From: an uncultured Colwellia sp. | Lineage (GTDB): Bacteria; Pseudomonadota; Gammaproteobacteria; Enterobacterales; Alteromonadaceae | DNA length: 44,261 nt | Direction of reading: 5' to 3' | Assembly (NCBI GenBank): GCA_913049915.1 | Contig: CAJWZC010000023.1 | Span: 1-44,261 of the forward strand | Shown: piece by piece, positions 42,547 to 44,261 of the stretch | Layout of the letters: every line of letters starts with the position of its first letter | Numbering within the stretch: position 1 is the first letter of the stretch | Notes under the pieces: model-generated | What the model saw: only the letters and a program-made list of their open reading frames with translations | The model's database searches: none | Told to the model about the DNA's origin: nothing | Program-made: the position numbers and the translations under genes

Positions 42547-42598
42547 ACTTTTTCCTTTATTTTCCTTATTTTTGGAAAATAAAAAATAAGGAAAAAGT
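42547..42598. repeat. Long inverted repeat in the rnm/trp divergent promoter region
   Basis: ACTTTTTCCTT (42547-42557) plus TATTTTCC (42558-42565) pairs with GGAAAATA (42574-42581) and AAGGAAAAAGT (42588-42598). The stem is 19 bp with one 6-nt bulge, around loop TTATTTTT. It is almost free of GC. It sits in a divergent promoter region, so it is not placed as a terminator for either gene. Confidence 0.8.
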
Positions 42599-42621
42599 GA
42601 CTAATACTGAGTGACTAATAC
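42597..42621 (+). promoter_or_regulatory. Direct repeat upstream of the trp leader
   Basis: GTGACTAATAC occurs at 42597-42607 and 42611-42621, 14 bp apart, about 35-60 bp upstream of the first Trp leader ORF. It may be part of the promoter or an activator/repressor site. No full TrpR operator was found. Confidence 0.45.
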
Positions 42622-42655
42622 CTAATAAATCATCGAAAATAAAGGCTAGTTAAAA

Positions 42656-42712
42656 ATGAATACAGCAATAATAAGCATAACATTAATTTGGTGGTGGCAT
42701 AACTCGACATAA
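42656..42712 (+). CDS. trpL: Trp operon leader peptide 1 (three consecutive Trp)
   Basis: An 18-codon ORF, MNTAIISITLIWWWHNST, with three Trp codons in a row at 42689-42697 and stop at 42710-42712. AAGG (42642-42645) lies 10 nt before the ATG. The terminator at 42763-42790 follows. Pairing supports attenuation: CATAAC (42698-42703) can pair with GTTGTG (42717-42722), or GGGTT (42715-42719) can instead pair with AACCC (42766-42770) and disrupt the terminator. A ribosome stalled on the Trp codons would free the second option. This is classic Trp attenuation, inferred from sequence only. Confidence 0.85.
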   Translation: MNTAIISITLIWWWHNST

Positions 42713-42762
42713 TTGGGTTGTGATAATTGCGTGTATCTTAAATAAGATTAAACAAATTTCAA

Positions 42763-42790
42763 AAAAACCCGCCCTTATTAGCGGGTTTTT
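42763..42790 (+). terminator. Trp attenuator terminator
   Basis: AAAAACCCGC (42763-42772) and GCGGGTTTTT (42781-42790) form a 10-bp stem with loop CCTTATTA and a T-run. It is 50 bp after the leader peptide stop and overlaps the predicted antiterminator. Confidence 0.88.
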
Positions 42791-42858
42791 CTCGTTAAAG
42801 TGTTCGAGATATACTGTCGAAATGAAGTTATATCATGTGTATTAATAAAGGATTTAAA

Positions 42859-42915
42859 ATGAATAGAACAAAAACATGGTTTATTTGGTGGCTATTGCCT
42901 ATTTACGCAGGCTGA
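42859..42915 (+). CDS. Second Trp-rich mini-ORF between the attenuator and trpE
   Basis: An 18-codon ORF, MNRTKTWFIWWLLPIYAG, has Trp codons at 42877, 42886 and 42889. It has a strong ribosome binding site (AAAGGA, 42847-42852, 6 nt from the ATG), better than that of leader 1 or trpE. The stop (42913-42915) is 38 nt before the trpE ATG. Around its end, ATTGCCT and AGGC-(TGA)-CAAT can pair, and a T-run (42919-42923) follows, so a second weak attenuator is possible. It starts MN like leader 1 and shares ATTTGGTGGC, so it may be a duplicate. Whether it is translated and whether it controls trpE is unknown. Confidence 0.65.
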   Translation: MNRTKTWFIWWLLPIYAG

Positions 42916-42953
42916 CAATTTTTCTTTAAATAAACACTATAGAAGTAATTAAC

Positions 42954-44261
42954 ATGACAAAAAATTTATCTAGTAAAATAGGTGTTGTATCTCTTATCGG
43001 AGTGAACACCATACAAGACAGTAGCCGCTATCAAAATGATCCGTTAAGCGTTTACCAATTATTGTGTTACCAACAATATCATAATATCTTGTTAGAATCT
43101 GCCGAGATTGATAAGAAGCATTTATTAAAAAGCCTATTATTAACTGATGCCGCAGTCAAAATTGTTTGTAATGGTCATTCTGTCACTTTTACTGCACTCA
43201 CTTTAAATGGTGAAAGCGCTATTGATTTTGCCGCAGCTCAATTAGAACAACACGCTAACATAACACTTGCTGATGATGGAAAATCCTTTCAAGCAACATT
43301 TAGCGAGGTCGCTAAAGATCTTGATGAGAAAGCACGTTTAAGTGCAACAAACCCATTACATAGTTTGCGATTATTCAATCAACTCACCGATGACAAAAGT
43401 CACCCTTTTTCTGTATTTTTAGGCGGTGTTTTTGCCTTTGACCTTATGGCTATTACAGAGCAATTACCCAAAGTTGTTGACGGTGATAATACCTGTCCTG
43501 ATTTTGTTTATTACTTAGCTGAAACGTTAGTTATTATTGATCATGAATTACAAAGCACTGAAATCATTGGTAATGTATTCAATTACAATAACGCTGAAAA
43601 ATCTAAACAAAGCCAATTAGCTATATCGAATCGTGTTGCGCATATTAAAGAGACTCTAGCCCTTTCTATTGATGCTAAGCAAGTATCGACATTAAGCCCT
43701 TCATTTGCTGATATTGCTAATAAAAAAGAATTTAATGAACAATTGAAAGTTGATATTAGTGACAAACGTTATTGTGAGATTGTTGAGCAATTAAAAGAAA
43801 ATATTCGAGCGGGTGATATTTTTCAAGTAGTTCCGTCACGTACATTTACCTTACCTTGTTTTGATTCCATTGCCGCTTATAAAGCGCTCAAGCTAAGTAA
43901 TCCAAGTCCTTACATGTTTTACCTAAAAGATAGCGACTTTTGTATTTTTGGTGCATCTCCCGAATCCGCATTAAAATACCAAGCCAGTAATCGTCATGTC
44001 GAGATTTATCCTATTGCCGGAACGCGTCCTCGCGGTTTTGATAAGCAGGGTAATATTTCGTTAGACCTAGACAGCCGCATTGAACTAGAGCTAAGACAAG
44101 ATAAAAAGGAATCAGCTGAGCATATTATGTTGGTAGATTTAGCGAGAAATGACATTGCTAGAGTTTCCCAGCCCGGCACTCGTTATGTTGCTGAGTTACT
44201 TAAAGTAGATCGCTACTCTCATGTAATGCACTTAGTTTCCCGAGTATGCGGGACGTTACAA
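42954..44261 (+). CDS. trpE: Anthranilate synthase component I (cut by window edge)
   Basis: The first 436 residues of the enzyme that makes anthranilate from chorismate, the first step of tryptophan synthesis. Start ATG at 42954; the frame is open to the last base, so the C-terminal part is beyond the window. The feedback-inhibition motif LLES is at 46-49, showing that Trp inhibits it. The chorismate-binding region has [37 protein letters not shown] and [15 protein letters not shown]. It is the first gene of the trp operon, read divergently from rnm. Expression is probably set by the leader/attenuator upstream, with a second Trp-rich mini-ORF just before it. Confidence 0.96.

Follow-up and report, generated by a model that had tools for sequence, protein, structure and literature searches.

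The window analysed here, a stretch of 44,261 nucleotides from an uncultured Colwellia sp., runs out within trpE. The 300 bases 5' of this gene hold, in this order, a small open reading frame (ORF1), a terminator hairpin with its T-run, a second small frame (ORF2), a spacer and the trpE ATG (Table 1). ORF1 is a trp leader peptide of the usual kind, followed by an attenuator, as the original prediction had it, and the further mini-ORF with three Trp codons that it placed 38 nt before trpE lies where it was expected, preceded by AAAGGA. The sharing of ATTTGGTGGC between both frames, also claimed there, is real, the start regions being 82% alike over 22 nt. By this likeness within the window, ORF2 may be a duplicate of ORF1. 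When the leader was shuffled 20,000 times with its dinucleotides preserved, 0.49% of the shuffles contained a mini-ORF that starts with ATG and has three Trp codons or more, and 0.045% contained at least two such starts, nested starts being scored separately.

Table 1. Elements of the trp leader and their positions in the window
Feature	Position	Strand	Basis or detail
ORF1, trp leader peptide (MNTAIISITLIWWWHNST, then stop)	42656..42712	+	sequence, conservation in relatives
Attenuator hairpin (AAAAACCCGC/GCGGGTTTTT) with T-run	42763..42792	+	arms 42763-42772 and 42781-42790
Shine-Dalgarno-like AAAGGA of ORF2	42847..42852	+	sequence
ORF2, here named trpL2 (MNRTKTWFIWWLLPIYAG, then stop), inferred arrest peptide	42859..42915	+	comparison across loci
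Conserved core WFIWWLLPIYAG, 12 codons abutting the stop	42877..42912	+	L, P, Y, A and G invariant
Stop tetranucleotide TGAC of ORF2	42913..42916	+	TGAC in 83/88 loci
Spacer of 38 nt, ORF2 stop to trpE ATG	42916..42953	+	sequence
Weak trpE ribosome binding site AGAAG	42941-42945	+	sequence
trpE, anthranilate synthase component I, runs off the window	42954..44261	+	PF00425, PF04715

In the window, the pairings CATAAC:GTTGTG and GGGTT:AACCC can be read by eye as a candidate alternative antiterminator pairing. A stock terminator scan calls the hairpin of the window on the minus strand only, as on the plus strand the T-run falls inside the stem. The leader as a whole (42640-42970) folds no more stably than its shuffles (z -0.42), the window has no Rfam match at gathering thresholds, and a search for a pattern like the TrpR box, allowing up to 3 mismatches to the consensus, found none in it. 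Upstream, between a divergent PHP-domain gene and ORF1, lies a near-perfect inverted repeat (ACTTTTTCCTTTATTTT / AAAAATAAGGAAAAAGT, 42547-42598) together with a perfect 14-bp nested pair, followed on its 3' side by a tandem 14-mer (AGTGACTAATAC.., 42596-42623). This repeat region is possibly a promoter or operator region.

The distribution of ORF2 was approached in several ways. A trpE protein search of contigs from one genome per species gave 105 confirmed loci, the best 80 of which were kept, and WF-x-WW codons precede trpE in 43 of these best 80. A scan made without this pattern covered the 500 nt upstream of each trpE match and took any mini-ORF that contained WW or three Trp; it returned the same ORF2 peptide in the same loci and, among the best 80, no other ORF2-like variants. 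Comparison across relatives, proposed along with the original prediction, has thus found both ORF2 and its Trp codons to be kept. Carriers among the best 80 comprise every Colwellia, Litorilituus and Pseudocolwellia locus except L009, whose contig begins too near trpE to be scored, as well as two Alteromonadaceae MAGs and two of five Thalassotalea loci; in the same set ORF2 is absent from Psychromonas, Rheinheimera, Arsukibacterium, Alteromonas, Photobacterium, Aestuariibacter and a few MAGs.

Whole-genome pattern searches gave a compatible picture. Among 196 genomes of the window's family, 62 contain the string WFxWWLxPxYAG-stop, in a single copy each, and a reversed control pattern had zero matches in these 196 genomes; the genome G008 carries the variant WYLWWLLPIYAG. 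Leaders were scanned in 20 of the 134 family genomes lacking the exact pattern, and divergent ORF2s elsewhere among them may be missed. With a looser string (WWLxPxYAG-stop), matches came from 10 genomes among 394 sampled for the order and 2 among 369 for the class, all of them in the window's own family. NCBIfam and PDB, queried with an ORF2 relative, returned no match. A trpE tree of 130 sequences gathers the carriers in one clade (support 0.99), which also contains genomes without ORF2, several of them on the Thalassotalea side and one other (L156). These non-carriers (L156, L157, L159, L056/L064 and L040/L158) are read as losses, so that, as far as the pattern searches reach, ORF2 is found only in one Colwellia/Thalassotalea clade, with losses.

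In all, 88 distinct loci encode the ORF2 C-terminus WF[I/L/M]WWL[L/Q]P[I/L]YAG directly before the stop codon, one of them with WY. A WWH-, WWWH- or WWFH-type ORF1 lies no more than 700 nt upstream in 88/88, and a Trp-rich leader is present in each of the 20 leaders scanned in genomes without the exact ORF2 pattern (18 WWWH, one WWWP and one WHWW). Because it occurs in all of those 20 loci as well as in every ORF2 carrier, the ORF1-type leader is held to be the older of the two. Its attenuator is equally regular: a hairpin with T-run stands between ORF1 and ORF2 in 88/88 loci by our own loosened scan, which was adopted since a stricter scan of this interval (62/88) lets long stems swallow the T-run, and the CCCGC..GCGGG core of the hairpin is shared by 77 of the 88.

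Strong selection acts on the ORF2 peptide, chiefly on its C-terminal 12 residues, as judged by codon changes. After removal of duplicate loci and placement of the 88 carriers on the trpE tree, parsimony counted 21, 19, 14, 16 and 10 changes in the core codons for L, P, Y, A and G, all synonymous, that is, 80 synonymous changes and no amino-acid change over these five codons. The search patterns behind half of the 88 loci fixed these very residues; a recount was therefore made over 44 loci (the 43 found by WF-x-WW codons and the window's own), in which the last seven residues were unfixed. It gave 12, 10, 8, 6 and 7 changes, again all synonymous (43 in total), and the search pattern is thereby dismissed as the source of the invariance. 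Where the core does vary, it does so conservatively (I/L/M; L or Q; I/L; F with one Y), and its third positions vary freely. The N-terminal residues differ in both sequence and length, with the nearest ATG 6 or 8 codons before the core. Conservation at the peptide level near the peptidyl transferase end, combined with a free N-terminus, is the pattern expected of an arrest peptide, and the important part of ORF2, by this comparison, is the stretch that would sit closest to the peptidyl transferase centre of a ribosome arriving at the stop codon.

Constraint extends beyond the peptide into the stop codon and the base behind it. These four bases read TGAC in 83 of the 88 loci, TAAC in 2, TAAA in 2 and TAGC in 1. 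As controls, ORF1 in the same loci has TGA in 2/88 and TGAC in 0/88, and the 31 long ORFs of the window have TGA in 2 and TGAC in 1. On the tree, the base 3' of the ORF2 stop changed twice, against 17-33 changes at the next 35 spacer positions. TAA or TAG is used at five loci, mostly on early branches (L083, L110, L118, L130 and L132), so UGA is preferred rather than essential. UGAC is a weak termination signal in E. coli. In OAZ1 reporters, UGA_C is described as terminating less than UGA_U, in a paper that itself cites an E. coli study on the base after the stop codon (PMC9841425). Since the whole C-terminal dozen and UGAC are constrained together, the evidence points to the nascent peptide and its termination; the original idea that Trp-tRNA is simply read a second time falls short, the constraint reaching beyond the Trp codons.

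The distance from ORF2 to the following gene is conserved irrespective of what that gene is. The first long gene is trpE in 62/88 loci, the frame being confirmed directly in 60 and, in L038 and L124, by a match that begins a few bases before the chosen start but in frame. In the other 26/88, a DAHP synthase (DAHPS) of 337-339 aa precedes trpE, its identity having been checked in NCBIfam for one and by the N-terminus for the others; this Bacillus-type DAHP synthase heads the trp operon in part of the clade (L117, L119-L122, L125-L128 and others). The gap from stop to ATG is 28-39 nt in 80/88 loci (57/62 trpE-first and 23/26 DAHPS-first), with start codons chosen by script as the in-frame ATG with the best Shine-Dalgarno match, so that single gap values may be off. 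In these 80, a ribosome with its P site at the last Gly codon would have the ATG of the first gene 34-45 nt away. An in-frame trpE ATG overlaps the DAHPS stop in 19 of the 26 DAHPS-first loci, through which control of the first gene could reach trpE.

The remaining eight loci deviate in two ways. In two Thalassotalea loci (L036 and L037), a third mini-ORF begins 31 nt past the ORF2 stop and its TGA overlaps the trpE ATG; it looks like a putative substitute for the first gene in coupling. The six others have longer gaps of 45-145 nt, which hairpins, if formed, would shorten to 30-39 nt; compared with shuffles, strong folds are limited to L133 (0.002) and L155 (0.014), whereas those of L103 and L118 are borderline, at 0.056 each, and those of L019 and L129 do not stand out. 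The 80 normal gaps have no predicted hairpin below -3 kcal/mol. A fusion of ORF2 to the first gene by frameshift or readthrough was considered and rejected, as the gap lengths occupy all three frames.

The near-unchanged peptide suggests that ORF2 may halt its own ribosome and so tune the output of the first enzyme. By a slight margin over even chances, we favour ORF2 as a second, cis-acting trp leader peptide, whose inferred arrest at the stop would add a translational gate on the first gene. The nascent chain of 18-20 aa, wholly within the exit tunnel, would slow or block peptide release, leaving the ribosome parked, the stop codon occupying its A site and its front edge beside the initiation region of the first gene; by the comparison of loci, a ribosome finishing ORF2 ends about 35 nt before the start codon of whichever gene is first. 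When Trp is replete, ribosomes would pass the WxxWW codons, arrest at the stop and hinder 30S loading on the first gene, and free L-Trp may strengthen this arrest, as in TnaC. Under Trp starvation they would instead stall at W10/W11, seven to eight codons (21-24 nt) upstream, and the start of the first gene would stay free. The result would be a double gate, on transcription through ORF1 and its attenuator, which read charged tRNA-Trp, and then on translation through ORF2. The extra regulatory step originally ascribed to ORF2 thus survives as a translational step on the first gene, which is the best fit, and not as a second transcription attenuation, for which a terminator-like site is seen in 1/88 loci.

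The sign of this control is probably feedback repression when Trp is plentiful, which is judged the likelier since it is what an operon for Trp biosynthesis would call for, provided that the ribosome is positioned by Trp codons or by Trp itself. By footprint estimates, a gap of 28-39 nt is close to the shortest that would accommodate both a parked ribosome and an initiating 30S subunit. Being this close to the limit, the arrangement could also mean activation, the parked ribosome covering the nascent RNA against Rho and RNases or passing ribosomes on by coupling, in the manner of tna. The lower limit of 28 nt on the spacing, beside the upper one, would not be needed for occlusion alone, and TnaC arrest is described as switching on its operon by shielding a rut site (PMC8429421). 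However, positive coupling through the Trp codons would give the wrong sign, with less trpE when Trp is short, unless something other than Trp induces the arrest, and the spacer sequence is unconserved, its bases changing freely; we regard activation as a real but minor possibility. More doubtful is an action in trans of the released ORF2 peptide, like that of peTrpL in S. meliloti. Conservation of the peptide itself is in keeping with it, one trans-acting trp leader peptide being already on record (PMC7298713), but it leaves unexplained why the stop is UGAC, why the conserved block runs exactly up to it, why the first gene lies at a fixed distance and why each genome has a single copy, at the trp operon.

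Further readings invoke RNA structure. A stall on the Trp codons of ORF2 might alter a fold that hides the ribosome binding site of the first gene; such a codon-based translational attenuation draws on the three invariant Trp codons and on the complementarity, in the window, of the W-F-I-W codons (GTTTATTT) to AAATAAAC of the spacer. Yet over the 80 normal-gap loci the mean predicted accessibility of this site is 0.55 for the free RNA, 0.61 with a ribosome at W11 and 0.63 with a ribosome at the stop, and a difference above 0.1 favours the W11 position in 15 loci and the stop position in 24. With no consistent direction, there is no common fold that hides the site. The spacer is again unconserved, the core third positions are free, and neither LxPxYAG nor UGAC would be accounted for, which makes this reading quite unlikely. 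By the criterion of erm-type systems, an RNA switch masking the Shine-Dalgarno sequence was likewise rejected, the accessibility effect being inconsistent over the 80 loci. A second transcription attenuator, with a weak terminator following ORF2, is very improbable: the predicted element (ATTGCCT/AGGC..CAAT) can be drawn by eye in the window as a bulged hairpin with a T-run, but no terminator is called after ORF2 in the window, and the same loosened scan finds one there in 1/88 loci, against 88/88 before ORF2. That ORF2 is unused, and kept by chance or recent common descent, has nothing in its favour but the small size of the frame; the many synonymous and almost absent missense changes in the core, also in the 44-locus subset, refute it and reduce its probability to a negligible one.

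A cis-acting arrest at the ORF2 stop, if true, would add to the natural arrest peptides a new family that conservation alone has brought to light, with members short enough for direct cryo-EM. It would also mean that bacteria can set a nascent-peptide gate behind a classical attenuator on one messenger. Should Trp induce the arrest, ORF2 would be a feedback-repressing counterpart of TnaC, allowing a test of how the same amino acid is sensed by a different tunnel motif. A literature search, in which subscription papers were thinly covered and absence is therefore weak evidence, found neither the ORF2 peptide nor any second leader peptide upstream of trpE on record.

The closest parallel among known systems is TnaC of E. 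coli, in which Trp12 is described as stacking on free L-Trp and as needing an aromatic residue behind it, with RF2 blocked by the peptide at UGA (PMC8429421). ORF2 resembles it in its invariant Trp plus aromatic residue (WF[ILM]WW compared with WFNID), in the UGA stop and in the link to Trp physiology; its W is followed by F in 87 loci and by Y in one, at a position that the collecting patterns fixed as F or F/Y. The distance from this Trp to the last residue is also near, 11 in ORF2 and 12 in TnaC. In contrast, ORF2 has Trp and Gly where TnaC has Asp16 and the terminal Pro24 (88/88, the Gly being unfixed by the search in 44), follows a separate attenuator, and precedes genes of Trp synthesis (trpE in 62, DAHP synthase in 26) rather than tnaA. 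It is of the leader or arrest-peptide kind but, by sequence, is not a TnaC. As for tnaA itself, a full-length match was seen in one of 118 family genomes (G109, of the window's genus, locus L215), below the curated cut-off of the model; a TnaC-like leader with a WYNLD motif lies upstream of it, ending in TAA and without the final Pro.

Classical TrpL with its attenuator is matched by ORF1, with Trp codons followed by a terminator hairpin, whereas ORF2 has no terminator of its own and its peptide is conserved far beyond the Trp codons. Two leader peptides in one regulatory region, ermBL and ermBL2, are described for ErmB (PMC8274638). The ermB frames overlap and serve a drug response, whereas ORF1 and ORF2 are separate, have a terminator between them and belong to a biosynthetic operon. 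In fungi, the arginine attenuator peptide represses a biosynthetic gene when the end product stalls the ribosome at the stop codon of a leader ORF. The logic of ORF2 would be the same only if Trp-induced arrest holds; the fungal system works through eukaryotic scanning, and its sequence is unrelated. It is tempting to propose, tentatively and at well below even chances, that the operon carries two serial leader peptides for two Trp signals, with ORF1 reading charged tRNA-Trp to govern transcription and ORF2 sensing free Trp in the ribosome to repress translation, as a new family of arrest peptides that would be to bacteria what the arginine attenuator peptide is to fungi.
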